This document shows, piece by piece, positions 2,101-63,137 of a DNA stretch of 63,889 nt. Each line of letters starts with the position of its first letter. The stretch's first letter is position 1. A model generated the notes under the pieces. It saw nothing but the letters and a program-made list of their open reading frames with translations, searched no databases and was not told the DNA's origin. Origin of the DNA: Roseitalea sp. MMSF_3546 (GTDB lineage: Bacteria; Pseudomonadota; Alphaproteobacteria; Rhizobiales; Rhizobiaceae); the NCBI RefSeq assembly GCF_030732865.1, contig NZ_JASHKB010000022.1, positions 1-63,889 on the forward strand, written 5' to 3'. The position numbers and the translations under genes were made by a program.

Positions 2101-2655
2101 CTACTCCATGTTGGTGTGGCGCGCGCGCATGGTCTGCGCCGTCTGGCCGAGCCGGCCCCGCAGATCGGCGATCATCGCCTCGAACACAAAGAACAGGGCG
2201 CCCTCATAGACCGAGCCCATGGGCAGCATGGACGTGCCGTCATCGCCGCCGTCGGACGCCATGGTCTGGGCCGGCACGGCGAGCACGAGATCGGCCAGTG
2301 CGGCCGATGGCGTGCCGGGCACGGCGGTGAAAAGGAGCAGCCGCGCGCGGGCGGCGCGGGCCGTGGTCATCTGCGCGGTCACCGTGGCCAGTTCGCCCGG
2401 CCCGGCCGAGACGATCAGCAGATCGCCCGCGCCCAGCGGCGGCATGGTCGTCTCGCCGACATAGCCGACCGCGCAGCCAAGGTGGTACAGCCGCATGGCC
2501 AGCCCGCGCAACTGGTAGCCCTCGCGGCCACAGCCATAAACGCCGATGCGCCGCGCACCGGCGATCATCGCGCAGGCGGTGTCGAGGCTGGCCGGATCCA
2601 CGCCGCCGAGCGCGGTCCCGACACGGTGCAGCGCTTCGTCGAACCGGCCATCCAT
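2101..2655 (-). CDS. SIS-domain sugar phosphate isomerase-like protein
   Basis: This 184-residue protein is essentially a single SIS (sugar isomerase) domain. It has a Rossmann-like start RIGVYGCGREG at about residues 36-46 and a second strand LLIVSAGPGEL near 79-89. The size and layout resemble 6-phospho-3-hexuloisomerase-type proteins, which interconvert phosphosugars, but the specificity is not established. The start was chosen because its ATG overlaps the stop of the kinase gene by one base (TGATG), as expected in an operon. A much longer in-frame opening upstream lies entirely inside the kinase gene. It is the last gene of the BtpA/M42/kinase operon. Confidence 0.8.
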   Translation of the reverse strand: MDGRFDEALHRVGTALGGVDPASLDTACAMIAGARRIGVYGCGREGYQLRGLAMRLYHLGCAVGYVGETTMPPLGAGDLLIVSAGPGELATVTAQMTTARAARARLLLFTAVPGTPSAALADLVLAVPAQTMASDGGDDGTSMLPMGSVYEGALFFVFEAMIADLRGRLGQTAQTMRARHTNME

Positions 2656-4157
2656 CACAGCGGCCCGTCGATGGCGGCCATCAGGTCCCTGGTCTGCGAA
2701 TAAAGGTTCTTGAAGATCGCATACTGGCGCTGATAGAGGGCGGCGTTTTCGGGCAACGGCGCCACCTCGCTCGCAATCGGGTTCCAGCGTTCGATATCGC
2801 CCGCCGCGACATCGCCGAGCGCCAGCGCGGCGAGAAAGGCGTCGCCATAGGACGCGCCGATCGACTTCTCGCGCATCACCTGACCCATTGCCGCGACATC
2901 GGAGGTCGCCTGCATCCAGACCGCGTTCCTGGTGCCGCCGCCGACGGCGTGCAGGCTTTCGGGCCCCTGGCCGATGTCGCGATAGGTCTCGATGACATGG
3001 GCCGTGCCATAGGCGATGCCCTCCAGCAAGGCCCGGAACATGTCGCCGCGCGTGTGGGTCAGATCGAGCCCGAACAGCATGCCCTTGGCGTGGGAATCGT
3101 GGATCGGCGTGCGCGCGCCGGAGAAATAAGGCAGCAAGATCAGGCCGTTGGCACCAGGCGGGGAGTCTTGCGTCTCGCCGACAAGGTCGGCAAAGGCCGT
3201 TTCGGCGTCCAGATCGCGGGCGAACTGGTCGCGGAACCAGTGCGTCAGCGTGCCCGCCGTCGGGATCCCGGCCATGGAGGCATATTGCCCCTCGAACAGC
3301 CAGGGCGCCGACCACAGCCGTCGGTCGCGCACCCACTGGGCGGTCGGCATGATGATGAAGATGGACGAGCCGTACATCACCATCATCTGTTGCGGCGACA
3401 GCACGCCGATGCTGACCGCCTCGGCCGCCGCGTCGATCGTGCCGGCGGTAACCGGCGTGCCGGCGGCAAGGCCGGTTTCGGCGGCCGCCTTCGCCGCGAC
3501 CTGGCCGACGATCTCGGTCGTCCAGACCGGCTCGGGCAGGCGTTCGGGCTCGATGATGTCGGCCGACAGGTCGGTGACGTAGCGCCGGGCGGCCATGTCG
3601 TAGAGCGGGGAGGTATTGGCGGCCGAATAGTGATCGATGACCACCCTGCCGGTCAGCCGCTGGACCAGAAAAGAGGTCGAGTTGAGCACATGGGCGGTCC
3701 TGGCATAGATGTCGGGATGGTTGCGCTTGAGCCAGAGGATCTTCGGGCCGACAGACTGGGCGGTCAGCGCGTTGCCGCAGCGTTCAAGGATCGCCTCCTC
3801 GCCGATTTGAGCGGTCAGTTCGTCGACCTGCGTGGCCGCGCGGTTGTCGACGCCGTAAAGGACCGCGTTCATCAGCGGCTCGCCCTGCGCATCGACGGGC
3901 AGCATGCACGGACCGATGGCGCTGGTCGCAACGGCGCGGATCGCGCCCGGGTCGATGCCGCTATCGGCCAGCAGCGTGCCCGTGACATGAACGAAATCGC
4001 CCCACCAGTCCTCGCGGGGGCGATGTTCCGCCCAGCCGGCCTGCGGCACCAGCATCTTGTGCCCGCGCGCGGCGCGGGCGACAATCCGGCCCTCGGGGTC
4101 GGCCAGAACGCCCTTGGTCTCGAAGGTGCCGATATCGACGCCCAGATAATAGCTCAT
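2655..4157 (-). CDS. FGGY-family carbohydrate kinase (xylulokinase-like)
   Basis: This 500-residue cytoplasmic kinase of the FGGY family would phosphorylate a sugar or sugar alcohol with ATP. The N-terminal nucleotide-binding strand VDIGTFETKGVLAD is at about residues 7-20. The second domain begins with GTIDAAAEAVSIGV, and the adenosine motif GGGTRNAVWMQ is near 406-416, as in xylulokinases and AI-2 kinases. The normal family length is 480-530 residues. Its ATG overlaps the M42 gene by four bases (ATGA) and its stop overlaps the SIS gene by one. The true substrate is unknown. The neighbours suggest it feeds a phosphorylated sugar to the SIS isomerase. Confidence 0.9.
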   Translation of the reverse strand: MSYYLGVDIGTFETKGVLADPEGRIVARAARGHKMLVPQAGWAEHRPREDWWGDFVHVTGTLLADSGIDPGAIRAVATSAIGPCMLPVDAQGEPLMNAVLYGVDNRAATQVDELTAQIGEEAILERCGNALTAQSVGPKILWLKRNHPDIYARTAHVLNSTSFLVQRLTGRVVIDHYSAANTSPLYDMAARRYVTDLSADIIEPERLPEPVWTTEIVGQVAAKAAAETGLAAGTPVTAGTIDAAAEAVSIGVLSPQQMMVMYGSSIFIIMPTAQWVRDRRLWSAPWLFEGQYASMAGIPTAGTLTHWFRDQFARDLDAETAFADLVGETQDSPPGANGLILLPYFSGARTPIHDSHAKGMLFGLDLTHTRGDMFRALLEGIAYGTAHVIETYRDIGQGPESLHAVGGGTRNAVWMQATSDVAAMGQVMREKSIGASYGDAFLAALALGDVAAGDIERWNPIASEVAPLPENAALYQRQYAIFKNLYSQTRDLMAAIDGPL

Positions 4158-5272
4158 GACGGATAGTCGTCCCTGTTCAGACTGAAGCCGGCATCGATGC
4201 GGCCTATTGCGGCGACGAGCAGTTCGGCCAGGCCGGTCAGGTCGCCCAGATCGCACATCTCCATGGCCGAATGGGTGTAACGGCAGGGAAAGCCGACATC
4301 GATGACCGCCACGCCCTCGCCGACCAGCTGGACATAGGCCGTCTCGGTGAGCGCCCCGGTATGGGCGCTGCGCTGCAATGGCAGGCCGGCCGCCGCGGCC
4401 GCGCCCTCGAGCAGCGCCACCAGGCCCGGATGCGGAAAGGCGCCGTTGAGCGTGCCGCGGCCGTGAAAGGCGTAAAGCGAAATGCCCGGCCCGCCGCCGA
4501 GCCGGACCTCGCCTCGGCTCGCCATGTCGGGCGTGTCGGCGGTTAGCAGCAGATCGAGCTGGATGGCGATCTTCGGCGCGAGCGCCTGCGCCGCCGGTAG
4601 CGCGCCGCGCAGGTTGAATTCCTCCTGGACCGAAAAGACGACATGGACGGTCGGCCGCGCCGTCACGGCGGCAAGCCGGCGAACGGCTTCGAGCTGAACG
4701 GCGCAGCCGGCCCGGTCGTCGACCGCGGTGCCGGCGATGCGTCCGCCGGCTAGGCGCGCCACATGCGGCCTGTAGACGACCGGTGCGCCGATCCTCACGC
4801 CCGCCTCGGCCGCCTCGCCGGCGCTGCGGAAGCCGCAATCGACGAAAACCTCCTGATAGGGCACGACGCGGTACTTCTCGTCCGGGCCGGTGGCATGATG
4901 GCTCTTGTTGGCGATCAGGCCGGGCACGTCGCGTCCCTCGCCGACCATGACCAGCACGGGCTGGGCGGCGAGCGCCCGCTCGGGCACGCCGCCGACGCGC
5001 TCGAGCCGCAAGAAGCCGTCGGGCTCGATCCTGCGGACGACGAAGCCGAGCTGGTCCATATGCGTGATCAGCATCACCGAAGGCAGGTCTGGATCGCCGT
5101 CGAGCGTTGCGATCAGATTGCCGAGCATGTCGGTGCGGCTGTCGATGCCGAGCGCGTCGAGCTGGCGCTTGAGCCAGGCGCGCACGCGGCCCTCATGGCC
5201 GCACAGGCCGGGGATGCGCATCAGTTCGTCGAGCGCCTCGCCGATGCGCTTTTCGGCCCCGGTCCCGGCCAT
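4154..5272 (-). CDS. M42-family metallohydrolase, SgcX/FrvX-like
   Basis: This 372-residue protein of the M42 family (glutamyl aminopeptidases and so-called endoglucanases) keeps the dinuclear metal and catalytic residues. They are His71 and Asp73 in THMDQLG, Asp185 in TAVDDRAG, the Glu217-Glu218 pair in VQEEF, Asp246 in TADTPD, and His334 in YTHSAME. Known members cleave N-terminal amino acids, but several with sugar operons (sgcX, frvX) have no proven substrate. This gene lies between a BtpA-family gene and a sugar kinase gene, so a sugar-linked substrate is an inference. The ATG at 5272 is favoured because it sits two bases after the upstream stop. Confidence 0.85.
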   Translation of the reverse strand: MAGTGAEKRIGEALDELMRIPGLCGHEGRVRAWLKRQLDALGIDSRTDMLGNLIATLDGDPDLPSVMLITHMDQLGFVVRRIEPDGFLRLERVGGVPERALAAQPVLVMVGEGRDVPGLIANKSHHATGPDEKYRVVPYQEVFVDCGFRSAGEAAEAGVRIGAPVVYRPHVARLAGGRIAGTAVDDRAGCAVQLEAVRRLAAVTARPTVHVVFSVQEEFNLRGALPAAQALAPKIAIQLDLLLTADTPDMASRGEVRLGGGPGISLYAFHGRGTLNGAFPHPGLVALLEGAAAAAGLPLQRSAHTGALTETAYVQLVGEGVAVIDVGFPCRYTHSAMEMCDLGDLTGLAELLVAAIGRIDAGFSLNRDDYPS

Positions 5273-5274
5273 GC

Positions 5275-6087
5275 TCACGCGCCCCGCGCCGCGCGCACGC
5301 GCGCCATGAAGTCGTCCGCCCGATCCGGATCGACCGGGTTCCAGGTATTGCCGTCGACCTTGAGCGAGGAGCCGACGACGCAGCCATCGGCGATGGCGAA
5401 TATGTCGGCCACGGTGGCGTGCCTGACGCCGGTATTGGCCATGACCGGCGTGTCGGGCAGCGCCTTCTTGACCGCTTCGAGATCGCTGATCGCGGCCGCC
5501 TCGCCGGTAATCTGGCCCGAAACGAGCACCGCGTCGGGGATCGAGGAGAAGACGGCGCTGCGCGCCCGGTCGGACAGCGGCCGGCGGTCGAGCGACCAGG
5601 CGAATTCCGCCGAGACGTTGAACAGCGTGACCAGGTCGGACCGGCCGAGCCGGTCGCGATAGCGCAGCGCCTTGCCGGCGTCGGGCGTCCAGGGCCCCAT
5701 GTCGGAGGCGTAGGTGCCGGTGAAGATCTCGCGCACGAAGCGCGCGCCGGTCGCGGCGGCCAGCGCCATGGTGCTCATCGGGTCCCACAGCACGTTGACG
5801 CCGAAGGGCATGGTCAGATCGTCCTTCAGCCGGCCGATGACGTAGGCCATCGCCGCGGTCGAGGCGGTATCGACCTCGAACTCATAGGGCCGGTCGTTCT
5901 CATTGCCGAACATGACCGCGTCGAAACCGGCCGCCGAAAGCGCCTTCAGATCGCGCCGGGCGGCCTCGACGATGGCCTGCATGCCGGCGCGGTGATCGTG
6001 CAGGGGCGTGCCCGGCAGGGCGCCCAGATGCACCATGGCGATGGCGGGCTTGGCCGTGCCGAAGACGGCGCTGAAACGTTCGGTCAT
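5275..6087 (-). CDS. BtpA/SgcQ-family TIM-barrel protein
   Basis: This 270-residue protein matches the BtpA family. Visible features are AMVHLGALPGTPLHD near the N-terminus, AGFDAVMFGNENDRPY, MPFGVNVLWDP, and a C-terminal phosphate-binding-like stretch VVGSSLKVDGNTWNPVD. BtpA was described as a photosystem I factor in cyanobacteria. Heterotrophic relatives such as E. coli SgcQ occur in sugar operons and lack a proven reaction. The ATG at 6087 is preceded by GGGAGGA with a 10-base gap, which rules against the ATG 12 codons upstream. It heads the four-gene operon ending at 2101 and diverges from the aldo/keto reductase gene. Confidence 0.85.
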   Translation of the reverse strand: MTERFSAVFGTAKPAIAMVHLGALPGTPLHDHRAGMQAIVEAARRDLKALSAAGFDAVMFGNENDRPYEFEVDTASTAAMAYVIGRLKDDLTMPFGVNVLWDPMSTMALAAATGARFVREIFTGTYASDMGPWTPDAGKALRYRDRLGRSDLVTLFNVSAEFAWSLDRRPLSDRARSAVFSSIPDAVLVSGQITGEAAAISDLEAVKKALPDTPVMANTGVRHATVADIFAIADGCVVGSSLKVDGNTWNPVDPDRADDFMARVRAARGA

Positions 6088-6204: not shown

Positions 6205-7227
6205 ATGAAAACAAGGCATTGGGAGCGGCTCGAAGGTCGCGGCATCGACTTCACCGAGCTCGGCTTCGGCACCGCCCCGCTGGGCAACCTCTACAAGGCC
6301 GTCAGCGACGAGGCGGCGCGCGAAACGCTCGATGCGGCCTGGGAGACCGGCTGCCGCTATTTCGACACCGCTCCGCTGTACGGGCTCGGGCTGGCCGAAA
6401 CGCGGCTGAACGGGTTTCTGCGGGGCAAGAAGCGCGAGGACTACGTGCTGTCGACCAAGGTGGGACGGCTTCTCGAGGTGTGTCCGCCCGAGCAGCGCCA
6501 CGGCATCGGCAAGTTCTTCGACACGCCCTCGCGGCGCGAGGTCTATGACTTCACCTATGACGGGGTGATGCGCTCGTTCGAGCTCTCGCTCGAACGGATG
6601 GGCGTCGACCGCGTCGATATATTGTTCGCGCACGATCTCGACCTGTTCAATCACGGCACCTGGGAGGCGCTCGAGGCCAAGCTGACCGAGTTCATGGCCG
6701 GCGGCTATTACGCGCTTATGTCGCTGCGCGACCAGGGCGTGATCAAGGCGTTCGGCGCGGGCGTCAATGAATGGAAGCCGGCGCAATGGCTGACCGAACG
6801 CGGCGATTTCGACATCTTCCTGCTCGCGGGGCGCTACACGCTGCTCGAGCAGGAGGCGCTGGAGAGCTTCCTGCCGCTGTGCGAGCAGCGCGGCATCGGC
6901 ATCGTCTTGGGCGGGCCGTACAATTCCGGCATTCTGGCGACCGGCCCGATCGAGGGGGCCTTTTACAATTACGATCCGGCGCCCCAGGACATTCTCGACC
7001 GGGTCGGACAGATCGAGGCGGTCTGCCGGGACCACGGCGTCAAGCTGATCGAGGCGGCGCTGAAGTTCCCGCTCAACCATCCGGTCGTGGTCTCGGTGAT
7101 CCCCGGCGGGCAGTCGGCGACGCAGGTGACCGGCAACCGGGCGATCTACGAGACCGATGTGCCGCCGGCGTTGTGGGCCGACCTCAAGCAGCGCGGACTG
7201 ATGCGCATGGACGCGCCAACGCCCTAG
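6205..7227 (+). CDS. Aldo/keto reductase, D-threo-aldose/L-fucose dehydrogenase-like
   Basis: This 340-residue cytoplasmic NAD(P)-dependent oxidoreductase carries the aldo/keto reductase tetrad at Asp54, Tyr59, Lys85 and His143. It has the family signature DTAPLYGLGLAETRLNGFL, and the cofactor-side stretch GGPYNSGILATG resembles D-threo-aldose 1-dehydrogenases and pyridoxal 4-dehydrogenases. Such enzymes oxidise L-fucose and related aldoses to lactones. This fits the nearby SMP-30 lactonase and L-fuconate dehydratase genes. The ATG follows GGCGGAGGAT. The stop TAG lies in a CTAG palindrome that also ends the convergent ribokinase-like gene. Pyridoxal as substrate remains possible. Confidence 0.85.
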   Translation: MKTRHWERLEGRGIDFTELGFGTAPLGNLYKAVSDEAARETLDAAWETGCRYFDTAPLYGLGLAETRLNGFLRGKKREDYVLSTKVGRLLEVCPPEQRHGIGKFFDTPSRREVYDFTYDGVMRSFELSLERMGVDRVDILFAHDLDLFNHGTWEALEAKLTEFMAGGYYALMSLRDQGVIKAFGAGVNEWKPAQWLTERGDFDIFLLAGRYTLLEQEALESFLPLCEQRGIGIVLGGPYNSGILATGPIEGAFYNYDPAPQDILDRVGQIEAVCRDHGVKLIEAALKFPLNHPVVVSVIPGGQSATQVTGNRAIYETDVPPALWADLKQRGLMRMDAPTP

Positions 7228-8135
7228 AATCGGTCGAGCAGGGCGCGCACCGCGTCCGGGCCGATCCGGTCGCGGTCGGCGACGGGCGTGGACACAAAAA
7301 GCGCGGCGGCGGCCATCGCGTAAGACAGCGCGGCGGCCATCGCATCGCCCTGCGCAAGCCTGGCGACGAGCGCGCCGCAGAACATGTCGCCGGCGCCGTG
7401 GCTCGAGGCGACCGGCACGCACGGGGCTTCATGGTGAAGGGCGCCCTGCCCCTTGCGGCGATGGACCAGACCGTCCGCGCCGAGCGTGACGATCAGGTCG
7501 GCCGGGCCGCCGGCCCACGGATCGACCGCGCGCAACGCCGCGTCGATTGTCGCGACCGGCCCGCCAAGCAGCGCCTCGGCCTCGATGCGGTTGACGATGA
7601 GAATATCGACCAGGGCGAGCAGGCCCGGATCGAGCGGGCGCATGGGCGCGGCGTTCAGAACGGTTTTCGCGCCCTGATCGGCCGCCATGCGGGCCAAAGC
7701 AAGGTTCACGGGCTCGGGCACCTCGTTCTGCAGCAGCAGATGGCCGGTGCCCGGCGGCCATGTCAACGCGGCCGGGTCGATGTCGCGATTGACGCCGGAG
7801 ACGACGACGGCGCCGTAATCGCCCCTGTCGTCGACAATGGCGACGCTCATGCCCGACGCGCCGGTTGCGGCCTGCTGAATGAGCGCGGTGTCGACGCCGG
7901 CGCTTTGCAGATTGGCGAGCAGCGTCTGCCCGAAACCATCGTCCGCCAGCCGGCCGGCGAAGGCGGTCGGGGCGCCGTGGCGCGCGCTCGCGACAGCCTG
8001 GTTGCCGCCCTTGCCGCCGCAGACATAGCGCACCGCGGCGCCCATCAGCGTCTCGTCGGGGCGCGGCAGGCGCGGCGCGTCGACGACGACATCGAGATGC
8101 AGCGCGCCGGCGACAAGGACGCGGCCGTCGCTCAT
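7224..8135 (-). CDS. PfkB-family sugar kinase, ribokinase-like
   Basis: This 303-residue kinase of the ribokinase/PfkB family has the first signature GGKGGNQAVASARHG at about residues 40-54 and the anion-hole/catalytic motif GAGD at 247-250 (Asp250 is the expected base). The usual Asp-Thr before GAGD is replaced by Ser-Ser-His. The length matches ribokinases. Its ATG overlaps the stop of the isomerase gene by four bases, so kinase and isomerase are co-expressed. It probably phosphorylates the ketose made by that isomerase, an inference from context. The stop codon shares four bases with the convergent aldo/keto reductase stop. Confidence 0.88.
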   Translation of the reverse strand: MSDGRVLVAGALHLDVVVDAPRLPRPDETLMGAAVRYVCGGKGGNQAVASARHGAPTAFAGRLADDGFGQTLLANLQSAGVDTALIQQAATGASGMSVAIVDDRGDYGAVVVSGVNRDIDPAALTWPPGTGHLLLQNEVPEPVNLALARMAADQGAKTVLNAAPMRPLDPGLLALVDILIVNRIEAEALLGGPVATIDAALRAVDPWAGGPADLIVTLGADGLVHRRKGQGALHHEAPCVPVASSHGAGDMFCGALVARLAQGDAMAAALSYAMAAAALFVSTPVADRDRIGPDAVRALLDRF

Positions 8136-9136
8136 CGCTCGGCGCCGCCGAACAGCGCCGCCTGCACGATGGCCTGGCTTGCCGGCGCATCCTGGCGGGC
8201 GATCGCCTCGGCCAGCGCGCCGTCGTCCATCAGCCGGCGGGCGATCGGGATCAGGCGATCCATCGCGGCGATGTTGGCGCGGCACTCGGCGACGGGATCG
8301 AGGCCGGACTGGTCGGGAAAGGTGTCGAAATAGACGGCCCGGTCATAACCGCAGCGCATGACTTCGACGAGCAGTTCGAGGGTCTGCACCGGGTGGACCG
8401 CGCCGGCCATCAGCCCGTCGTCGCGCTTGCCGTAGCCGTCATTGAGATGCACGCCCAGCAGCCTTGAATGGCGGGCGACGAGCGCGGCCGAATGGGCCGG
8501 CATCTCGTCGGCATAGAGCACATGGGCGAAATCGAGCGTGACGCCCATGTTGGGCGCGCCGACCTCGCCGATCGCCAGCAGCGTGGTCGCGACATCGGGC
8601 ATCAGCGCGAAGGCGCGCGGCTCGTTGGGCTTGTATTCGATGGCGATGTCGATCGACCGGTCATGCGCTGCGACCGCATCGAGAGCGGCGATGGTGTGGT
8701 CCCAGGCCCGCCGGTAGTCCAACTGGAAGGCGTAGTCGAACCCGTCCTGGCCCATCCACAGGGTCATCAGCCTGGTGCCCATCTCGGCGGCGGCGTCGAT
8801 GCCCTTTCTGGTGATGTCGATGGCGGCCTGGCGCACCGTCGCATCGGGATGAGTGAACGCGCCCAGCTTGAAGCCGTGATCGGTGTAGTAGCGCATGGCA
8901 AGGCCGTTGACGGCGATGCCGAGCCCGTCCATCGCCGCGCGCAGTTCGGCCGGACCCGTATCCTCGAGATGGTCGGGAAAATTGAGGTCGGCGGCGTTCA
9001 GGCCATCGGCCTCGGCGGCGCGCTCGAGCAGATCGAGCGTGGTGATCCGGTTCCTGCCGGGCCAGCGGCGCTCGGCGCCGATGCGGAAGGCGTTGAGCCG
9101 CGCCGCATAGCGCGGCCTGTCGGGAAAGCCGGACAT
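8132..9136 (-). CDS. TIM-barrel sugar isomerase (xylose isomerase-like superfamily)
   Basis: This 334-residue protein belongs to the xylose isomerase-like TIM-barrel superfamily and is most like the short L-rhamnose/sugar isomerase group. Metal-ligand candidates are the glutamate in DIAIEYKPNEPR, the aspartate and histidine in VTLDFAHVLYADE, the histidine in LGVHLNDGYGKRDD, and the acidic residue in VYFDTFPD. These are the expected positions for a divalent-metal aldose-ketose isomerase. The ATG is preceded by AAGGAG at seven bases. Downstream is a ribokinase-like gene, giving an isomerise-then-phosphorylate pair. The exact sugar is unknown, with deoxyhexoses plausible given the neighbouring fuconate genes. 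Confidence 0.8.
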   Translation of the reverse strand: MSGFPDRPRYAARLNAFRIGAERRWPGRNRITTLDLLERAAEADGLNAADLNFPDHLEDTGPAELRAAMDGLGIAVNGLAMRYYTDHGFKLGAFTHPDATVRQAAIDITRKGIDAAAEMGTRLMTLWMGQDGFDYAFQLDYRRAWDHTIAALDAVAAHDRSIDIAIEYKPNEPRAFALMPDVATTLLAIGEVGAPNMGVTLDFAHVLYADEMPAHSAALVARHSRLLGVHLNDGYGKRDDGLMAGAVHPVQTLELLVEVMRCGYDRAVYFDTFPDQSGLDPVAECRANIAAMDRLIPIARRLMDDGALAEAIARQDAPASQAIVQAALFGGAER

Positions 9137-9170: not shown

Positions 9171-10088
9171 TCACGGCCCCGGATAGGGCAGGCCCGACAC
9201 GTTCACATAGGTGGCATAAAGGCTGGTCGTGCCGCAGATGAAGAGCCGGTTGCGCCGGGCGCCCCCAAAGCACACATTGGCCACGACCTCGGGCACGGCG
9301 ATCTTGCCCAGAAGGGCGCCATCGGGCGCATAGCAATGGACGCCATCGCCGGCGCTGGTCCAGACATTGCCGTGGACATCGATGCGAAAGCCGTCGAACA
9401 GCCCATTGTCGCATTCGGCGAAGACATCCCCGCCCGACAGGCGGTCGCCGTCGACGGAAAAACGCCGGATGTGGCGAGGGCCGTTGTCGACATGGGTCGC
9501 GCCGGTGTCGGCGACGAACAGTTCGGTACCGTCCGCAGAAAAGGCAAGACCGTTGGGCTTGACGAAGTCGGTGCCGGCCGCCTTGACGGCGCCGGTGCCC
9601 GGGTCGACGCGGTAAAGGTGCGAGGCGCCGATCTCGCTTTCGGCGCGCGCGCCCTCATAGTCCATATCGATGCCATAGGTCGGATCGGTGAACCAGATGG
9701 CGCCGTCGGCGGCGACCACGACGTCATTGGGCGAATTGAGCCGCCGGCCCTGGTGGCTGTCGGCGATCACCGTGACCGTGCCGTCATGCTCGGTGCGGGT
9801 GACGCGGCGGCCCAGATGCTCGCAGGTGACGAGCCGACCCTGGGCATCGCGCGTATTGCCGTTGGCGTTGTTCGCCGGTTCGCGGAAGACCGAAACGCCG
9901 CCATCCGTCTCGTCGAAGCGCATCATCCGGTCGTTGGGAATGTCGGAGAAGATCAGGTAGCGCCCGCCGCCGAACCAGGCCGGTCCCTCCAGCCAGCGCC
10001 CGCCGGTCCACAGCCGTTCGAGATGGGTGTTCATCAGGACGAGCGCGGCAAAGCGCTGATCGATAATGCGAAGATGGTCCAGAAACAC
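9171..10088 (-). CDS. SMP-30/gluconolactonase-family lactonase
   Basis: This 305-residue six-bladed propeller enzyme of the SMP-30/regucalcin family hydrolyses sugar lactones using one divalent metal. Expected ligands are visible: Glu34 in WLEGPAWF, the asparagine of NSPNDVVVAADG, the asparagine of KPNGLAFSADG, and the aspartate of FDGFRIDVHGN. The start is a GTG with GGGAGGG eight bases upstream, which I prefer over an internal ATG at 10034 that has no such site. It would act on the lactone made by a sugar dehydrogenase such as the one at 6205. It diverges from the L-fuconate dehydratase gene and heads the isomerase-kinase group. Confidence 0.85.
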   Translation of the reverse strand: MFLDHLRIIDQRFAALVLMNTHLERLWTGGRWLEGPAWFGGGRYLIFSDIPNDRMMRFDETDGGVSVFREPANNANGNTRDAQGRLVTCEHLGRRVTRTEHDGTVTVIADSHQGRRLNSPNDVVVAADGAIWFTDPTYGIDMDYEGARAESEIGASHLYRVDPGTGAVKAAGTDFVKPNGLAFSADGTELFVADTGATHVDNGPRHIRRFSVDGDRLSGGDVFAECDNGLFDGFRIDVHGNVWTSAGDGVHCYAPDGALLGKIAVPEVVANVCFGGARRNRLFICGTTSLYATYVNVSGLPYPGP

Positions 10089-10155
10089 GCGCTCGGCCCT
10101 CCCGTGCCGCTTGTCTCCGTGTCGGCCAATGGCGGCGGCGCGTCAAGGCGGCCAT

Positions 10156-10168
10156 GGCTTGCCAAGCC
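10156..10168. promoter_or_regulatory. 13-base palindrome between lactonase and fuconate dehydratase genes
   Basis: In the 140-base divergent region the sequence GGCTTGCCAAGCC forms a perfect inverted repeat (GGCTTG, one central C, CAAGCC). Its position between two oppositely transcribed catabolic genes is where an operator would be expected, but the arms are short and GC-rich. No regulator gene sits beside it. Confidence 0.3.
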
Positions 10169-10228
10169 CGGTTGCCGGAGACCAATATCGCACCGAGCAA
10201 GGGTTCAACGCCAGCCGAAGGTTCGACC

Positions 10229-11536
10229 ATGTCCGCCACCATCACCCATGTCCACGCCCAGGACATTCGATTTCCCACCTCGCGCGCGCTCGACGGCTCG
10301 GACGCGATGAACCCGGCGCCGGACTATTCGGCCGCCTATGTGACGCTGCACACCGACCACGGGCCGACGGGGCATGGCCTGACCTTCACGATCGGGCGCG
10401 GCAATGAATTGTGCGTCGCGGCCATCGATGCGCTGGCGCCGCTGCTTGTCGGCCATCGGCTCGACGACCTGTTCGCCGATATGGGCGCGATGTGGAAACG
10501 GCTGACCGGCGACAGCCAGTTGCGCTGGCTCGGCCCGGAAAAGGGCGTCATCCATCTGGCCGGCGCGGCGCTCGTCAACGCGGTCTGGGACCTCTACGGC
10601 AAGAGGGAAGGCAAGCCGGTCTGGCGGATCCTGGCCGACATGACGCCGGAGGAAACCGTGCGGCTGGTCGACTGGACCTATCTTGCCGACGCGCTCGATC
10701 CGGGCGAAGCGCGCGAGCGCCTCGAGGACAAGGCCGCCGGCCGCGCCGCGCGGATCGCCGAGATGGAGGCTGGCGGCTATCCGGCCTACACGACCTCGGC
10801 GGGGTGGCTGGGCTATTCGGACGACAAGATGCGGGCGCTGTGCGAAGCGGCGATCGCCGATGGCTGGAGCCATTTCAAGATGAAGGTCGGCGCCGACATT
10901 ACGGACGATCTGCGGCGAGCGGCGATATTGCGAGAGGCGATCGGGCCCGAGCGCAAGCTGATGATGGATGCCAACCAGGTGTGGAGCGTGGACACCGCGA
11001 TCGCCAACATGAAGCGGCTCGCCGCCTACGAGCCGTGGTGGATCGAGGAGCCGACGAGCCCGGACGACATTCTCGGCCATGGCCGGATCGCGCGCGAGAT
11101 CGCGCCGATCAAGGTGGCGACCGGCGAGCACTGCCACAATGCGGTGATGTTCAAGCAGTTCCTGCAGGCAGATGCGCTCGGTTTCTGCCAGATCGATTCA
11201 TGCCGGCTGGCCGGGCCGAACGAGATCGTCGGCGTGCTGCTGCTGGCCGACAAGTTCGGCGTGCCGGTCTGCCCGCATGCCGGCGGCGTGGGCCTTTGCG
11301 AATATGTCCAGCACATCTCGATCTATGACTATGTCGCCGTTTCGGGCTCGCTGGAGAACCGTGTGCTCGAATATGTCGATCACCTGCATGAGCATTTCAT
11401 CGATCCGGTCGTCATGCGCGACGGCCACTACATGCCGCCGACAGCGCCGGGCTATTCGATCGAGATGAAGCCCGACAGCCTGGCCGCGCACCGCTTTCCC
11501 TCGGGCGAAGCGTGGACGGCGATGCCGGCTGCCTGA
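10229..11536 (+). CDS. L-fuconate dehydratase (enolase superfamily)
   Basis: This 435-residue enzyme removes water from L-fuconate to give 2-keto-3-deoxy-L-fuconate. The length and motifs match the fuconate dehydratase subgroup: Lys217-Met-Lys219 in HFKMKVGAD, metal ligands Asp247 (MDANQVW), Glu273 (WIEEPTSPDD) and Glu300 (ATGEHCHN), and general base His350 in VCPHAGGVGL. The ATG at 10229 follows GAAGG by six bases. An in-frame opening 25 codons upstream looks spurious. The divergent lactonase gene fits the same non-phosphorylative L-fucose pathway. The following dehydrogenase step may be one of the SDRs at 44940-46488, though those are far away. Confidence 0.9.
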   Translation: MSATITHVHAQDIRFPTSRALDGSDAMNPAPDYSAAYVTLHTDHGPTGHGLTFTIGRGNELCVAAIDALAPLLVGHRLDDLFADMGAMWKRLTGDSQLRWLGPEKGVIHLAGAALVNAVWDLYGKREGKPVWRILADMTPEETVRLVDWTYLADALDPGEARERLEDKAAGRAARIAEMEAGGYPAYTTSAGWLGYSDDKMRALCEAAIADGWSHFKMKVGADITDDLRRAAILREAIGPERKLMMDANQVWSVDTAIANMKRLAAYEPWWIEEPTSPDDILGHGRIAREIAPIKVATGEHCHNAVMFKQFLQADALGFCQIDSCRLAGPNEIVGVLLLADKFGVPVCPHAGGVGLCEYVQHISIYDYVAVSGSLENRVLEYVDHLHEHFIDPVVMRDGHYMPPTAPGYSIEMKPDSLAAHRFPSGEAWTAMPAA

Positions 11537-11543
11537 CGGCCGG

Positions 11544-13190
11544 TCAGGCGTCTCGCCCCATCACCTTGCCCGGCGTCAGCACGCGCGGGTCCGGCAGCAC
11601 CTCGATCAGGGCGGCGGTCTCAGTGGCCATGGCGCGCTCGAAGGCGGGCGCGAAATCGGCCGTCCGGGCGACGCGCTCGCCATGCAGGCCATAGGCGCCG
11701 GCCAGCGCCATGAAATCGGGATTGAACAGGTCGGTGCCCGAAACCCGGCCCGGATAATGCGCCTCCTGATGCATGCGGATGGTCGCATACATGCCGTTGT
11801 TGACGACGATGACGATGATCTTGAGCTGGTGCTCGGCGATGGTGCCCAGCTCCTGCATGGTCATCTGCAGGCAGCCATCGCCGGCGAAACAGACAACGGT
11901 GCGGTCGGGATGAACCAGCTTGGCCGCGACAGCGGCCGGCAGGCCGTAACCCATCGAGCCCGATGTCGGCGCGAGCTGGGTGCGGTAACGGCGATGGCGG
12001 TGGAAGCGGTGCAGCCAGACCGAATAATTGCCCGCGCCATTGGTGATGATGGCGTCCTGGGGCAGCCGATCGCGCAGCCAGACGACCGCTTCGCCCAGAT
12101 TGAACGCGCCCGGCAATGCCGTGGCGGTGTCCGAAAAGGCGCGATAGTCGGCATTGGCGGCTCTCGTCCAGTCGACCCAGGCGCATTGCGCAGGTGCCGC
12201 GAGCCGCGTTGCCGCGGCGAGGAATTCGCCGACCGTTGCATTGATCGCCATGGCGCCGTGATAGACGCGGCCAAGCTCCTCGGCATCGGCGTGGATGTGG
12301 ATCAGGCCCTGGGCGGGTCCGGGGATGTCGATCAGGGTGTAGGACGAGGTGGTGCAGTCGCCAAGGCGTGCGCCAAGCGCCACGATCAGGTCGCTTTCGC
12401 CGATGCGCGCGGCGAGCCTTGGATCGATGCCGAGTCCGGCAACGCCGGCATAGTTGGGATGGTCGTTGGGGAACCGGTCCTGGCAGCGAAAGGCGGCGGC
12501 GACCGGCAGCGACCAGCGCCCGGAGAGGCCGACCAGCGCGGCGCAGTCATCGGCCGTCCAGGTCTCGCCGCCGACGATCATCAGCGGGCGCCGGGCCGCG
12601 GCGAGCCGCTCGCCGAACCGTGCCATCTGCGCGCGCGAGGGCGCGGGCCGGCCGACCACGGCCTCGGGCACCGGTGCCGCCTCCGCCTCGCCCGACAAGA
12701 CGTCCTCGGGCAGGCCGAGCACCACCGGGCCGGGCCGGCCCGACATGGAAGTGGAAACGGCGCGGGCGAGATATTCGGGCAGGCGCGCGGTGTCGGACAC
12801 GGTCGCGGCCCATTTTACCTGGTCGCCGAACATCGCCTTGACGTCGATCTCCTGGAACGCCTCGCGCTCGACAAAGCCGCGCTCGATCAGCCCGACCAGC
12901 AGGATCATCGGCACCGAATCCTGGGCGGCGACATGCACCCCGGCATAGGCGTTGGCCGCGCCCGGCCCGCGCGTGACCAGCGCGATGCCCGGCCGTCCGG
13001 TCAGCTTGCCAAAGGCCTCGGCCATCATCGCCGCACCGCCCTCCTGCCGGGCGATGGTCAGGCGGATGTCGGGCGCGTCGACCAGCGCATCCAGGATCGG
13101 CAGAAAACTCTCGCCGGGAACCGAGAAGACGTGGTCGATCCGATTGGCCCGCAGGGCCTCGACGACGATCCGGCCGCCGGATTTCAGCAT
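11544..13190 (-). CDS. ThDP-dependent enzyme, acetolactate synthase large-subunit-like
   Basis: This 548-residue thiamine diphosphate enzyme has the N-terminal pyrimidine-binding domain with the activating Glu50 in ARQEGGAAMM. It also has a central domain and a C-terminal ThDP/metal motif that starts with GDG at 437-439 and ends with NN at 464-465. The overall layout is that of acetolactate synthases, but no small regulatory subunit is nearby. Stand-alone homologues include decarboxylases and carboligases of catabolic operons. The ATG at 13190 is preceded by GGAG at eight bases. It diverges from a GntR regulator gene that may control it. The substrate is unknown. Confidence 0.82.
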   Translation of the reverse strand: MLKSGGRIVVEALRANRIDHVFSVPGESFLPILDALVDAPDIRLTIARQEGGAAMMAEAFGKLTGRPGIALVTRGPGAANAYAGVHVAAQDSVPMILLVGLIERGFVEREAFQEIDVKAMFGDQVKWAATVSDTARLPEYLARAVSTSMSGRPGPVVLGLPEDVLSGEAEAAPVPEAVVGRPAPSRAQMARFGERLAAARRPLMIVGGETWTADDCAALVGLSGRWSLPVAAAFRCQDRFPNDHPNYAGVAGLGIDPRLAARIGESDLIVALGARLGDCTTSSYTLIDIPGPAQGLIHIHADAEELGRVYHGAMAINATVGEFLAAATRLAAPAQCAWVDWTRAANADYRAFSDTATALPGAFNLGEAVVWLRDRLPQDAIITNGAGNYSVWLHRFHRHRRYRTQLAPTSGSMGYGLPAAVAAKLVHPDRTVVCFAGDGCLQMTMQELGTIAEHQLKIIVIVVNNGMYATIRMHQEAHYPGRVSGTDLFNPDFMALAGAYGLHGERVARTADFAPAFERAMATETAALIEVLPDPRVLTPGKVMGRDA

Positions 13191-13234
13191 GGCTTGCACT
13201 CCGTCTTGCAATAAGCGGTTGCGTTCGCGCCGAC

Positions 13235-14127: not shown

Positions 14128-14997
14128 TCATCGGCTGTTCATCCGGCGCTGCAGGGCGCGGCCGACCAGCATCAATGCAAGCGACGTGATCAGCACCGCC
14201 AGACCCGGAAAGATCGAGATCCAGGGGGCAAACAGGATATAGTCCTTGCCCTGTTCGAGGATCGCGCCCCAGTCGGGGGTGGGCGGCTGCACGCCAAGGC
14301 CGAGAAAGCCGAGCGCCGCCTGAATCTGCAGGATCAGTGGAAACAGGATCATGTACTGGGTCAGCATCAGCGGCATGACATTGCGCGCCACGTGGCGGCC
14401 CAGGATCGTGGTGTCGCGCAGGCCGACGCTGCGCGCCGCCTCGACATAGGGCAGGCTCGCCTCGCTCATCGCGCCGGCGCGGGCGATGCGGAAGAAGACC
14501 GGCATGTAGACGATCGACAGGGCAAGGACGAGATTGACCATTTGCGGGCCCAGAATGCCGGTGATGATGATGCCCAGGATGATCGGCGGAAAGCTGAGCA
14601 TGACATCGACGAGGCGACCGAGCACCTGGTCGATCAGCCCGCCGAAATAGCCCGAGATCAGCCCGAAGAAGCCGCCCAGGATCGCAGAGAGCAAGAGCGA
14701 GCCGGCGCAGATCGAGAGGGTGACGCGTGCGCCGTGCACGACGCGGGCGAACAGGTCGCGGCCGACATCGTCGGTGCCGAACCAGTGGGCTGCCGATGGC
14801 GGCTGGAGGGTGGCGGCGGAGTTGATCGCAAAGGGCGATTGGGCGGCGAACAGGCCCGGCACGGCCGCAACGACCACCAGCGCGCCGATCAGCGCCAGGC
14901 CCGTGGCCATGGCCGGCTCGTTGCGGGCGCCGCGCAGGAGCCTGACCGGCCAGGAGGGCGAAGCCGGCCGTGTCCGCTCGGGCAGCGTCATGGTCAT
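14128..14997 (-). CDS. Oligopeptide/dipeptide-type ABC permease, DppC/OppC-like
   Basis: This 289-residue inner-membrane permease has the DppC layout: a cytoplasmic N-terminus, a first membrane helix at about 30-50, a periplasmic stretch with WFGTDDVGRDLFARVVHGAR, and then five more helices. The EAA loop is around 185-202 (YVEAARSVGLRD). It pairs with the upstream permease, whose stop overlaps this start by four bases. It is the last gene of the long minus-strand operon that begins at 22383. Systems of this type also import oligosaccharides, opines and sugar acids, so a peptide substrate should not be assumed. Confidence 0.9.
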   Translation of the reverse strand: MTMTLPERTRPASPSWPVRLLRGARNEPAMATGLALIGALVVVAAVPGLFAAQSPFAINSAATLQPPSAAHWFGTDDVGRDLFARVVHGARVTLSICAGSLLLSAILGGFFGLISGYFGGLIDQVLGRLVDVMLSFPPIILGIIITGILGPQMVNLVLALSIVYMPVFFRIARAGAMSEASLPYVEAARSVGLRDTTILGRHVARNVMPLMLTQYMILFPLILQIQAALGFLGLGVQPPTPDWGAILEQGKDYILFAPWISIFPGLAVLITSLALMLVGRALQRRMNSR

Positions 14998-15938
14998 GAC
15001 ACCCTCATGCGCGGGTCGATGGCGTGGTAGGCGATGTCGATGACCAGATTGACGATCATGGCCACCAGCACGACGAGCAGAAGCGCGCCCTGGACGACCG
15101 GGTAGTCGCGCGTTTCGATCGCCGTCAGCAGCAGCCGGCCCAGGCCGGGCAGCGCGAACAGGCTCTCGATGATGACGACACCGCCAAGAATCTGGATCAG
15201 GATCAGCCCCATGAAGGTGACGATCGGGATCGTGACGTTGCGCAAGATGTGCTTGAAGAAGACGATGCGCGTGGGCAGGCCCTTGGCGACGGCGGTGCGC
15301 ACATATTGCTGCTGCAGCGCGGAGACGACGTTCTGGCGCACGAACTGGCTGTAGGCAGCGACCTGCAACAGGGCGAGGCTCGACACCGGCAGAACCAGGA
15401 TGGCGGCATTGTCGGCGAGCGACTGCGTGGGCGGCACGAAGCGCAGCGGCGGCGACCAGGACAGAGCGCTGGAGACGGCAACCAGCAGCATCAAACCGAC
15501 CCAGAACACGGGCGCGGACAGGCCGATCACGTTGAAGCCCTGAATGAGCGTGTCGATTGGCCTGCCCTCGTAAATGCCGGCGAGGATGCCGAGTGGCACG
15601 CCGATGACGGTGGCCACGGCAAGCGTGACGAGCCCCAGTTGCAGGGTCACCAGGAAGGACGACACGACCATGTCGGTGACGGGAATGCCGCGCGTCCAGC
15701 TCACGCCCAGATCGCCGCGCAGCGCATCGCCCAGCCATGTGACGTACTGGACATGGATCGGCGCATCGAGGCCGAAAAAGGCGCGCAGCGCGGCCTCGGC
15801 CTCCGGTCCGCCGGCCTGACCCATCATCTGCGCGACGACGTCGCCGGGCACCATGCGCACCAGCGCGAAGATCAGAAAGGTCGCGAGCAGCGCGGTGACG
15901 ATCGAGGCGCCGAGGCGCTTGAGAAGATAGATGCCCAT
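14994..15938 (-). CDS. Oligopeptide/dipeptide-type ABC permease, DppB/OppB-like
   Basis: This 314-residue permease has the DppB hallmarks: an N-terminal helix followed by VRMVPGDVV, a periplasmic segment with YVTWLGDALRGDLGVSW, and the EAA-type loop YVRTAVAKGLPTRIV. It forms the channel with the DppC-like protein. A 77-base gap separates it from the binding-protein gene upstream, and that gap holds a strong hairpin annotated separately. The start ATG gives the normal family N-terminus. Confidence 0.9.
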   Translation of the reverse strand: MGIYLLKRLGASIVTALLATFLIFALVRMVPGDVVAQMMGQAGGPEAEAALRAFFGLDAPIHVQYVTWLGDALRGDLGVSWTRGIPVTDMVVSSFLVTLQLGLVTLAVATVIGVPLGILAGIYEGRPIDTLIQGFNVIGLSAPVFWVGLMLLVAVSSALSWSPPLRFVPPTQSLADNAAILVLPVSSLALLQVAAYSQFVRQNVVSALQQQYVRTAVAKGLPTRIVFFKHILRNVTIPIVTFMGLILIQILGGVVIIESLFALPGLGRLLLTAIETRDYPVVQGALLLVVLVAMIVNLVIDIAYHAIDPRMRVS

Positions 15939-15970
15939 CGGGGAACCATGGCTGTTTCAGCATGTGGCGA

Positions 15971-15992
15971 CCGGGCGCGCCTTGGCGCCCGG
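15971..15992 (-). other. Intercistronic stem-loop after binding-protein gene
   Basis: A perfect eight-base stem (CCGGGCGC pairing with GCGCCCGG, six-base loop) lies 24 bases past the binding-protein stop and before the permease start. There is no run of T residues, so it is more likely an RNA-stabilising or attenuating hairpin than a full terminator. Such hairpins often raise binding-protein levels over permease levels. Confidence 0.55.
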
Positions 15993-16015
15993 CCGCGCAA
16001 TGTCAAGCGAAGGCC

Positions 16016-17623
16016 TTACTCGTCCAGCCAGGTGCGCGCGATACCGTAATACCAGCCGGTGGGATGTTGGCTGTAATTCTGTACCGCCTCGTCCCGCACC
16101 ACGATGTGGTCCGAGGAGAACATCATGATCGTCGGCACGGTCTCGGCGAGCACCTTCTGGAACTGGGCATAGATATCTTTGCGTTCGTCGTAATCGCTCT
16201 CCGAACGGCCCCTGGCGAGCAGTTCGCTGGCTTCCTCATTGTTCCAGTTGCGGAAGTCGGCGCCCTCGGGCTGCTTGTGGAAGTGACGGAAGAACAGTAG
16301 GTTCGGATCGGGCTGGGTCGCCCAGTCATTGAAGGTGAAGCCCATCTGGCGCGAGCGGAAGTTGTCGATCCACACGCCCAGATCGACGCGCTGGATCTGC
16401 AGGTCGATGCCGATCTCGCCGAGTTGCTCCTTGAGCGTGACCGCGGCCGGGTCCATCCAGTCATAGCCGTTGATGGTGGTCAGCGTGATGTCGACGCCGT
16501 CGCCATGGCCGGCGTCCTCCATCAGCGCGCGGGCCCGCTCCAGGTCGCGCGCCTGAAAGGGCAGTTCGGAGGCCGGCACGCCCCAGCGGTCTTCCAGGCC
16601 GGCCACGATGGTGGTGATCACCTGACCATAGCCGCCGATCGCCGCCTGCATGATCTCTTCCTTGTCGATGGCGAGCGAGATCGCCTGGCGCACGCGCACA
16701 TCGTCGAGCGGCGGAGTTTCCGAGCCCAGATCGACGGTTTTCTGGTTGAGCGACGGGAAGCGCTCGATGACCAACCCTTCAATGCCCTCGACCTGGGCGA
16801 CGTCCTGGGGTCGCTCGAGGTTGACCACGTCGATGCGACCGTTGCGCAGCGCGACCAGCATGGAGGCACTGTTGGGCAGGAAGGCGAAGTTGACCGCATC
16901 GAGATAGGGCGCGCCCTCCTCCCAGTAGTCCTCGAAACGCTCCAGCGTGAGGTTCTGGTTGGGGTTGAACTCGGCCAGTCTGAACGGGCCGGTGCCAACG
17001 CTTTGGGAGTTCATCGCCGTCCTGGCGTTCTCGTCGTCGAAATAGCCGGCCGGGATGACGGCGCCGTATTTGTTGCCGAGCGTCATGGGCAGTGCCGCGT
17101 TGGGCTCGGACAGGGTCATGACCACGGTCAGCGGACCGGTCGCCTCGACGGAGTCGATGATGGCGAAGTCGCCGGCGCCGGGCGAGCCGTTTTCGGGATC
17201 GCGGATGTAGTTGTAGGAATAGGCGACGTCCTCGGCGGTCATATCCTTGCCGTTGTGGAACTTGACGCCCTCGCGCAGCTGGAACGTGTAGGTCAGCCCG
17301 TCCTCGGAGACCTCATAACTCTCGGCCAGAAGCGGCTTGGCCTCGCCGTCGGCGGCCTCGTAGAAAAGGCCCTGATAGATCAGCACGGTGACGCGGATGC
17401 GCGCATCGGCGGCCTGGTGGAACGGATCGAGCGCGGGCGGCTCGACCAGCATGCCGACATCGAGCGTGCCGCCCATCTGCGGGGCATCGGGCACCGGACC
17501 GTAGAGCTCGGCCCAGGCCGGGCTCGCGGCGGCGCCGGCAAGCGCCGCCGCAGTGAATGCAGTGATGATGGATTGCCGTGGCCTCCGGCCGATTGCGGCG
17601 ACGATGGATTTGTGCATGGACAT
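16016..17623 (-). CDS. Oligopeptide-type ABC transporter substrate-binding protein (SBP family 5)
   Basis: This 535-residue periplasmic binding protein has an N-terminal signal peptide ending near AAASPAWA (about residue 37). The mature part begins with a family-5 pattern: LDVGMLVEPPALDPFHQAAD, then TYTFQLREGVKFHNGKDMTAEDVAYSY. The start at 17623 is set by GGAGGAG seven bases upstream. It delivers substrate to the DppBC-like permeases. Family 5 members bind peptides, but also opines, heme and oligosaccharides. The operon partners (racemase/dehydratase-type enzyme, epimerase, RidA) suggest a sugar acid or amino-acid conjugate, which is inference. Confidence 0.9.
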   Translation of the reverse strand: MSMHKSIVAAIGRRPRQSIITAFTAAALAGAAASPAWAELYGPVPDAPQMGGTLDVGMLVEPPALDPFHQAADARIRVTVLIYQGLFYEAADGEAKPLLAESYEVSEDGLTYTFQLREGVKFHNGKDMTAEDVAYSYNYIRDPENGSPGAGDFAIIDSVEATGPLTVVMTLSEPNAALPMTLGNKYGAVIPAGYFDDENARTAMNSQSVGTGPFRLAEFNPNQNLTLERFEDYWEEGAPYLDAVNFAFLPNSASMLVALRNGRIDVVNLERPQDVAQVEGIEGLVIERFPSLNQKTVDLGSETPPLDDVRVRQAISLAIDKEEIMQAAIGGYGQVITTIVAGLEDRWGVPASELPFQARDLERARALMEDAGHGDGVDITLTTINGYDWMDPAAVTLKEQLGEIGIDLQIQRVDLGVWIDNFRSRQMGFTFNDWATQPDPNLLFFRHFHKQPEGADFRNWNNEEASELLARGRSESDYDERKDIYAQFQKVLAETVPTIMMFSSDHIVVRDEAVQNYSQHPTGWYYGIARTWLDE

Positions 17624-17782
17624 TTCGCTCCTCCAGGCTCGCATGCCACCGCAAAACCGCCGCGCCAAGGCGCGACGCCGCCCGGAGGTGGCCTTTCCGG
17701 GCGATCGGTCGAACAATTCGGGCTCAGCTTGCAATACCGATTCACGCAATCCGCCCAAGCTCCCGTTCTCCCTTGGTTTTCG

Positions 17783-62885: not shown

Positions 62886-62926
62886 GTCTTGCTCCTTCGC
62901 CGTCCCACTCGACGGCCGTTGCAGTT

Positions 62927-63118
62927 GATTCGGGCAGGTCTCCTGACTCGCGCTTCATTGCCGCCCCGCCGCCTTCCCGGGCCCAGTGGCCCAGTGGCTC
63001 GTGGCGGGTGGCTCGGCGCTCACAGTTGCGAGGGCAGTCCCGGATCAGGCCCCGAATTGGGTCGTCCCTACCGTGTTCCCTTTTCATCCCTTGAGCTCGG
63101 CTCGCAGGAACCCGAACC
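62927..63118 (-). ncRNA. Cobalamin riboswitch
   Basis: On the minus strand, the outer stem pairs GTTCGGG with CCCGAAT. Inside it are GGGATGAAAAGGGAACACGG, GGACTGCCCTCGCAACTGTG, and the B12 box AGCCACTG (62999-62992), followed by GGGAAGG and GAGTCAGGAGACCTGCC near the end. These are the conserved blocks of the cobalamin riboswitch. It ends 41 bases before the cbtB start, so binding of cobalamin would repress cbtB, cbtA and the histidine-rich gene. Confidence 0.95.
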
Positions 63119-63137
63119 GCCAGTGTAGGCGGCGACC

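Follow-up and report, generated by a model that had tools for sequence, protein, structure and literature searches.

Results

A run of four genes in Roseitalea

We analysed a stretch of 63,889 nucleotides from Roseitalea sp. MMSF_3546 (contig NZ_JASHKB010000022.1, hereafter the window), in which four minus-strand genes form a single co-directional run. In reading order, they encode a BtpA/SgcQ-family protein, an M42 metallohydrolase, an FGGY carbohydrate kinase and a SIS-domain protein (table 1). The BtpA gene starts with ATG, with AGGGGAGG upstream. It is separated from the M42 gene by a 2-base gap, the M42 and kinase genes overlap by 4 bases, and the kinase and SIS genes by 1 base. The BtpA protein passes PF03437 (251 bits, cut-off 30) and the BtpA/SgcQ model TIGR00259 (254 bits, cut-off 153), the M42 protein passes PF05343 (242 bits, cut-off 23), and the kinase matches FGGY_N (PF00370, 152 bits) and FGGY_C (PF02782, 102 bits) over cut-off. 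The SIS protein barely passes the Pfam SIS model (25.5 bits, cut-off 25). Coordinates and family models thus bear out the original prediction, made from the bare sequence, of four minus-strand genes joined by gaps or overlaps of 1–4 bases. It further proposed a conserved, uncharacterised, sugar-type operon related to the sgc cluster of Escherichia coli, which the comparisons below support for the first three genes, with the SIS gene as an optional addition.

Three of the four genes form a conserved core

We searched named genomes with the window BtpA and took the best 80 of 452 relatives as the set of named loci (L and G numbers are our labels for loci and genomes). Their BtpA proteins are 72–82% identical to that of the window, and the record titles belong to Hyphomicrobiales, Rhodobacterales and Rhodospirillales. 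Neighbouring genes were labelled by phmmer with 73 reference proteins, and only those families are named here; clusters of antisense open reading frames (ORFs) near the loci were discounted as artefacts of high GC content. Strong M42 and FGGY relatives lie beside BtpA in 76 of the 80 loci. Among the other four, L031 and L052 end just past BtpA, L037 lacks the M42 gene and L087 the kinase. The joints are tight. In 50 of 77 loci, the BtpA and M42 genes share 4 or 1 bases, and in 70 the two are no more than 31 bases apart; the seven longer gaps are of 141 (L046), 206 (L086) and, in five loci, about 1 kb, these last containing a CUT2-type permease. Of 76 pairs of M42 and kinase genes, 54 share 4 or 1 bases and none is more than 31 bases apart.

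The position after the kinase is variable. It holds a SIS gene, a SIS gene then a creatininase gene, a creatininase gene directly, an amidase gene or nothing clear. SIS genes occur in 13/80 loci, creatininase-family genes in 23/80 and both in 7/80, some loci ending early. An amidase-family gene, tested with Pfam, directly follows the kinase at L024 (13447-14919, plus strand), and L035 is similar in appearance. The expectation that all four families would co-occur therefore held for BtpA, M42 and FGGY and failed for SIS, and we rejected the four-gene unit as the core. The conserved co-directional core consists of BtpA, an SgcX-type M42 hydrolase and an FGGY kinase of a mostly BtpA-linked clade, to which SIS, creatininase and amidase genes are optional fourth members. 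In three full-length loci (L054, L068 and L073), the triad and an importer are the only genes labelled. Hence, three enzymes may suffice, and these gene sets may represent a complete route.

Since the 80 loci had been found through BtpA, we ran reverse searches over 385 genomes of the class. BtpA is rare there, exceeding its cut-off in 18 genomes. The kinase search (E ≤ 1e-60, up to four candidates scored per genome) gave 15 matches in 14 genomes, the window included. Thirteen sit with a BtpA gene, 11 directly adjoining it and two (the window and G272) with the M42 gene in between. The other two are in G163, on contig 69, where the kinase adjoins an M42 gene at the contig end, and in G148. Window-type M42 proteins (more than 400 bits) were found in three genomes: two adjoin BtpA (the window and G272) and one lies at the G163 contig end. 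A cut M42 fragment adjoins BtpA in G224. Among the literature matches listed, the portions of text available contained no characterisation of the triad or of a BtpA protein from a heterotroph.

The M42 hydrolase links the operon to the sgc cluster

We aligned the window M42 protein with 82 relatives passing length and score filters. Residues H71, D185, E217, E218, D240 and H334 are identical in all 83 sequences and in SgcX, which confirms the prediction that every metal residue is kept; going by M42 structures, we take these six to be the metal ligands and the general base. Two further positions, F219 (after the Glu pair) and Y313, are each kept in 81/83 sequences and both in SgcX, and three aligned M42 proteins from the PDB carry other residues there. 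A tree joins the window protein to SgcX and to the sgc-type M42 protein from L136 (support 98/97) and keeps FrvX, YpdE and a third protein outside; all three outside rows have long branches.

The E. coli cluster sgcXBCQAER encodes SgcX (M42), components B and C of a phosphotransferase system (PTS), SgcQ (BtpA), PTS component A, SgcE (an epimerase) and SgcR, and no kinase. The window operon likewise holds relatives of SgcX and SgcQ together, its BtpA being 47% identical to SgcQ. The two differ in what surrounds this pair: in the sgc loci of E. coli and G616, PTS genes take the place of the ATP-binding cassette (ABC) importer and FGGY kinase of window-type loci, and SgcE belongs to sgc. SgcA, SgcC and SgcE had no match in 86 window-type records among ORFs of at least 90 aa, a floor under which SgcB (92 aa) could escape, on contigs that may stop before a distant gene. 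Within the window, none of SgcA, SgcB, SgcC and SgcE had a match. L136 holds relatives of SgcA, B, C, E and R, and SgcR-like DeoR regulators occur in six CUT2-variant loci. The window operon is most readily understood as a version of sgc built on an ABC importer and a kinase. The frv and fry clusters of E. coli (FrvX and YpdE with PTS) also place an M42 gene within a sugar-transport operon, but their M42 proteins fall outside the SgcX group and no BtpA is present among their annotated neighbours.

A 2026 study in E. coli reports induction of sgc by some, though not all, nitrogen-containing carbon sources and normal growth of sgc mutants, including on 190 Biolog carbon sources, and names no substrate (PMC13343008). 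These findings fit a nitrogen-containing conjugate and do not show one.

BtpA is a predicted TIM barrel with conserved residues

Cyanobacterial BtpA has been associated with photosystem I or tetrapyrrole synthesis. The window protein scores well under the cyanobacterial BtpA equivalog NF045918 (164 bits versus a cut-off of 400). A sequence search of the PDB retrieved no BtpA relative (four matches at E 0.17 or worse were read as chance), and a search of viral contigs gave no confirmed one. An AlphaFold 2 model, built from 50 sequences (that of the window plus 49 taken from the 80 named loci), is a TIM barrel with a predicted local distance difference test score (pLDDT) of 88.1. Foldseek returned 302 matches at E ≤ 0.001, the first 50 having query template-modelling (TM) scores of 0.47–0.63 at 11–17% identity. 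These 50 include 2-keto-3-deoxy-6-phosphogalactonate (KDPGal) aldolase, geranylgeranylglyceryl phosphate (GGGP) synthase, HisF, dihydropteroate synthase, PcrB, TrpF, TrpA, indole-3-glycerol phosphate synthase (IGPS), thiamin phosphate synthase, PdxJ and ribulose-phosphate epimerase (RPE), most of which, we assume, use phosphorylated or diphosphate compounds. The RefSeq name of SgcQ, putative nucleoside triphosphatase, gets no support from the predicted fold.

When 158 BtpA sequences were reduced to 24 diverse members at 72% identity, H20 was kept in 24/24, N62, R119, R169 and D185 in 23/24 and K243 in 22/24. The latter follows a VGSSL segment that we take to resemble the phosphate loop found past strand 8 in barrels of this kind.

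The kinase is distinct from the xylulokinase of the genome

The genome holds six FGGY kinases. XylB is the best-scoring named family for the kinase of the operon, which reaches 301 bits on TIGR01312, under the cut-off of 380. Another kinase, on contig 19, reaches 537 bits on the same model; next to it lie ribose-type ABC genes and a frame that matches E. coli XylA at 625 bits. The operon thus shares a kinase superfamily with a xylose operon and differs in that its kinase is under the XylB cut-off and the actual xyl genes lie on another contig. We rejected the xylose operon, and the original prediction survives the objection that its kinase might be an ordinary xylulokinase. In a 27-row tree with seven outside rows, the window-type kinases and those of another cassette type (DeoR-BtpA-FGGY-SDR, described below) form a single clade of 20 rows apart from XylB (97/96); this tree left out AraB, FucK, LsrK, RhaB, L164 and several nearer rows. 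A 42-row tree puts a very long AraB branch within the BtpA-linked group and leaves out of it the L164 kinase, itself linked to BtpA. Hence, the clade is supported, yet not exclusive.

The SIS protein resembles HxlB and is seldom found

The SIS protein shares its fold and some motifs with HxlB, the 6-phospho-3-hexuloisomerase of the ribulose monophosphate (RuMP) pathway, but scores 134 bits on TIGR03127, under the cut-off of 160. Its nearest PDB chains are YckF and AF1796. It keeps PMGS..E and C-terminal RH.N.E-like motifs. GRSG and GSGE, unchanged in YckF and AF1796, are replaced by GRE-something and GPG-something in 15/15 aligned SIS proteins. The substrate therefore probably differs from that of 6-phospho-3-hexuloisomerase. 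No HxlA-like partner was found among ten window genes scanned. SIS relatives at E ≤ 1e-8 occur in five of the 385 genomes. That of the window is the only one within a triad; BtpA has no match in three of the other genomes and lies on a separate contig in the fourth. The closest of these relatives (G015, 51% identity; locus L190, 8778-9341, plus strand) scores 159 bits on the HxlB model (cut-off 160) and is surrounded by ABC and FGGY-kinase genes, without BtpA.

BtpA occurs in several other cassettes

BtpA genes are also found in other gene companies. Cassettes of a DeoR regulator, BtpA, an FGGY kinase, a short-chain dehydrogenase/reductase (SDR) and an ABC importer occur in Shinella, Labrenzia, Thermus and Rhizobium. 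They share BtpA and a sister-group kinase with the window operon and differ in having the dehydrogenase, in some cases with a haloacid dehalogenase (HAD) phosphatase, in place of M42. On a Thermus thermophilus plasmid (L105), a BtpA 71% identical to that of the window stands with a kinase of this other cassette type, a mix that suggests transfer or exchange between cassettes. A further type (L109, L110, L137, L140, L142-L144, L149 and L150) joins a ribokinase-like PfkB gene and BtpA to a varying selection of M20 hydrolase, phosphotriesterase-like, GATase1-like and TenA genes, and has an ABC importer of the ribose type. The kinase, TenA, M20 and phosphotriesterase-like genes of such cassettes in Rhizobium and Pantoea raised a nucleosidase-like role for BtpA, which we do not favour for the window type. 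L107 (Phyllobacterium) and L108 (S. fredii) combine an SgcQ-like BtpA with a PIG-L deacetylase, a Gfo/Idh oxidoreductase, an alpha/beta hydrolase and a sugar isomerase-like gene. L107 has no annotated kinase in view; in L108, a gene for tagatose-6-phosphate kinase lies at a distance of about 5 kb, in an adjacent group of genes. A haloarchaeal BtpA adjoins PfkB.

We drew 33 BtpA loci from sets of 385 and 398 genomes. Thirty have an FGGY or PfkB-type match nearby, six of these being weak (less than 100 bits), and one further locus is sgc-like with a PTS, so that a kinase or PTS accompanies BtpA in 31/33. Families of amide-bond hydrolases (M42, creatininase, amidase, M20 and PIG-L) recur near BtpA; this company across cassette types is suggestive only. 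In two loci of different cassette types (L106, 14358-15869, plus strand; L083, at about 13.5 kb, plus strand), a gamma-glutamyltransferase-like gene follows the BtpA-linked kinase, possibly a hint that the conjugate is a gamma-glutamyl or some other amide compound.

Importer and neighbouring sugar genes

Two ABC permease genes converge on the operon (table 1). The contig starts at base 1, so any binding-protein gene there would be cut off. Relatives of importer components in the 81 loci include a binding protein in 50 and an ATPase-like protein in 40. The long binding protein of L069 has two PDB relatives, both weak (E about 0.001), and thus gives no hint of the substrate.

On the other side, an aldo/keto reductase (AKR) gene diverges from BtpA. 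AKR relatives above 350 bits occur in 45/80 loci, and a lactonase-like Amidohydro_2 gene in 30/80, of which 29 also have the AKR. As 21 of the 52 full-length triad loci, including those of Devosia, Dongia and the CUT2 variant, lack an AKR above this score, we treat it as a frequent neighbour and not as a part of the operon. The dehydratase-like protein reaches 529 bits with L-fuconate dehydratase 1yey, 571 with 4ip4 and 560 with human ENOSF1 (4a35), and its gene probably starts about 75 bases further in than tabulated. By sequence, the AKR, SMP-30 and dehydratase-like genes are probable L-fucose/L-galactose oxidation genes. The sugar genes adjoin a minus-strand gene (11544-13220) for a thiamine-pyrophosphate enzyme well over the NCBIfam PRK08199 cut-off (802 versus 539). 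Further along the minus strand are two ORFs resembling dipeptide-type ABC permeases with a family 5 binding protein (SBP_bac_5; 14128-17758), a BCCT betaine/carnitine/choline transporter (40103-41752, 578 bits) and a cobalamin riboswitch (62916-63130, 109 bits against a gathering score of 31.5).

Table 1. Genes of the operon and its surroundings in the window.
Feature	Position	Strand	Remarks
SIS-domain protein, nearest HxlB	2101-2655	minus	184 aa; optional member
FGGY carbohydrate kinase	2655-4157	minus	500 aa; mostly BtpA-linked clade
M42 metallohydrolase	4154-5272	minus	372 aa; SgcX group
BtpA/SgcQ-family TIM-barrel protein	5275-6087	minus	270 aa; first in run
MalF-type ABC permease	51-1169	plus	PF00528; relative in 56/81 loci; converges on operon
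MalG-type ABC permease	1173-2090	plus	PF00528; relative in 55/81 loci
Aldo/keto reductase	6205-7227	plus	PF00248; divergent from BtpA; nearest PDB chains are L-galactose dehydrogenases
PfkB/ribokinase-like kinase	7224-8135	minus	PF00294; neighbour; relative in 30/81 loci
Xylose-isomerase-like TIM barrel	8132-9136	minus	PF01261; neighbour; nearest chain 3ktc; relative in 34/81 loci
SMP-30 lactonase-like gene	9171-10088	minus	neighbour
L-fuconate dehydratase-like enzyme (enolase superfamily)	10154-11536	plus	neighbour; in 3/81 loci

Discussion

A tentative pathway and its alternatives

The reading that we favour, at somewhat less than even confidence, is a dedicated catabolic operon for a sugar derivative imported by an ABC transporter, in which the M42 hydrolase, the kinase, BtpA and, where present, the SIS protein act in this order. 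The M42 enzyme would hydrolyse an amide- or acyl-type bond and release a sugar, possibly a ketose. The FGGY kinase would then phosphorylate this sugar, taking the role of the PTS in E. coli sgc. BtpA, as a putative barrel of the ribulose-phosphate-binding kind, would turn the sugar phosphate into a compound of central metabolism by a candidate epimerisation, isomerisation or aldol cleavage. In some lineages, the SIS protein might isomerise a ketose phosphate further, in a reaction like that of 6-phospho-3-hexuloisomerase. We place phosphorylation before BtpA mainly because a kinase and an ABC importer replace the phosphorylating PTS of sgc. A dedicated pathway is suggested by the triad in 76/80 loci, the tight joints, the 13/15 strong kinase matches with BtpA and the grouping of the M42 protein with SgcX, together with the kinase or PTS near most BtpA loci, the fold matches and the recurring amide-bond hydrolases.

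Several observations weigh against this proposal. One BtpA-linked kinase (L164) falls outside the kinase clade, and a strong kinase match occurs in a genome without BtpA (G148). An amide hydrolase is missing from the SDR-type cassettes of Shinella, Labrenzia and Thermus. Neither a kinase nor a PTS is seen at L151 and L167, and the Phyllobacterium cassette (BtpA, PIG-L, Gfo/Idh) has no annotated kinase in view, in an incomplete annotation table. The fold matches to the BtpA model are a resemblance at the level of the superfamily and not of function: the first 50 also include biotin synthase, designed proteins, and D-allulose and L-ribulose 3-epimerases, the last two of which presumably take unphosphorylated sugars.

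These epimerases, the cassette lacking an annotated kinase in view and the gene order itself (BtpA-M42-FGGY-SIS) are what speaks for the sequence of events in the original prediction, in which a sugar or conjugate is first worked on by the M42 protein and BtpA, and what they make is then passed to the kinase and the SIS protein. This we consider unlikely, and less probable than phosphorylation before BtpA: the PTS of sgc would phosphorylate the sugar at entry, ahead of SgcQ, kinases or a PTS stand at 31/33 BtpA loci, and most of the nearest folds act on phosphorylated compounds. An action of BtpA before phosphorylation is thus not supported. The triad might instead be an accessory of the adjoining L-fucose/L-galactose oxidation genes (AKR, lactonase and fuconate dehydratase), handling a fucose-linked compound or by-product. 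The window does carry a fuconate dehydratase-like enzyme, and the AKR (45/80 loci) and Amidohydro_2 genes (30/80, 29 with the AKR) are frequent companions, but the triad seems to work alone in the 21/52 full-length loci without an AKR above 350 bits, which makes this explanation rather improbable.

Still smaller is the chance that BtpA and the SIS protein form a RuMP-like pair, with BtpA as an aldolase like 3-hexulose-6-phosphate synthase, an enzyme that we take to belong to the barrel superfamily of the fold matches, and SIS as its isomerase. HxlB is indeed the nearest relative of the SIS protein, but the latter was not found in 67/80 loci (some ending early), scores under the HxlB cut-off and has both GRSG and GSGE altered in 15/15 sequences. 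We give slightly less credence to a non-catalytic BtpA acting in assembly or regulation, as suspected for its cyanobacterial namesake from its tie to photosystem I or tetrapyrrole synthesis, with M42 as an ordinary peptidase. The failure on NF045918 (164 versus 400), the H20, N62, R119, R169, D185 and K243 residues kept in 22–24 of 24 diverse members and the steady partnership with sugar kinases all argue against it. The least probable of these alternatives, and one that we regard as very unlikely, is a commonplace pentose or pentitol operon whose kinase is a xylulokinase: XylB is the best family of the kinase, but at 301 bits against a cut-off of 380, with a 537-bit XylB and a XylA relative elsewhere in the genome, and the kinase groups with BtpA-linked kinases in the tree.

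Towards the role of sgc and BtpA

The favoured order of hydrolysis, phosphorylation and BtpA can be extended to a bolder proposal, which we offer as possible but on the unlikely side. In this undescribed pathway, SgcX-type M42 proteins would be sugar-conjugate amidases and not peptidases, the kinase clade or the Sgc PTS would phosphorylate the released ketose, and BtpA/SgcQ would add a new epimerase or aldolase for sugar phosphates to the ribulose-phosphate-binding barrel superfamily; in sgc, the same route would be fed by the PTS, with a nitrogen-containing sugar conjugate as its substrate. The ABC and kinase version is more tractable than the PTS version, as its kinase and binding protein can be screened directly on sugars. 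Once identified, the product of the kinase would be a candidate for what BtpA uses in nature and would allow a strong guess about sgc. The operon thus offers a route towards the role of the sgc cluster and of the BtpA family.

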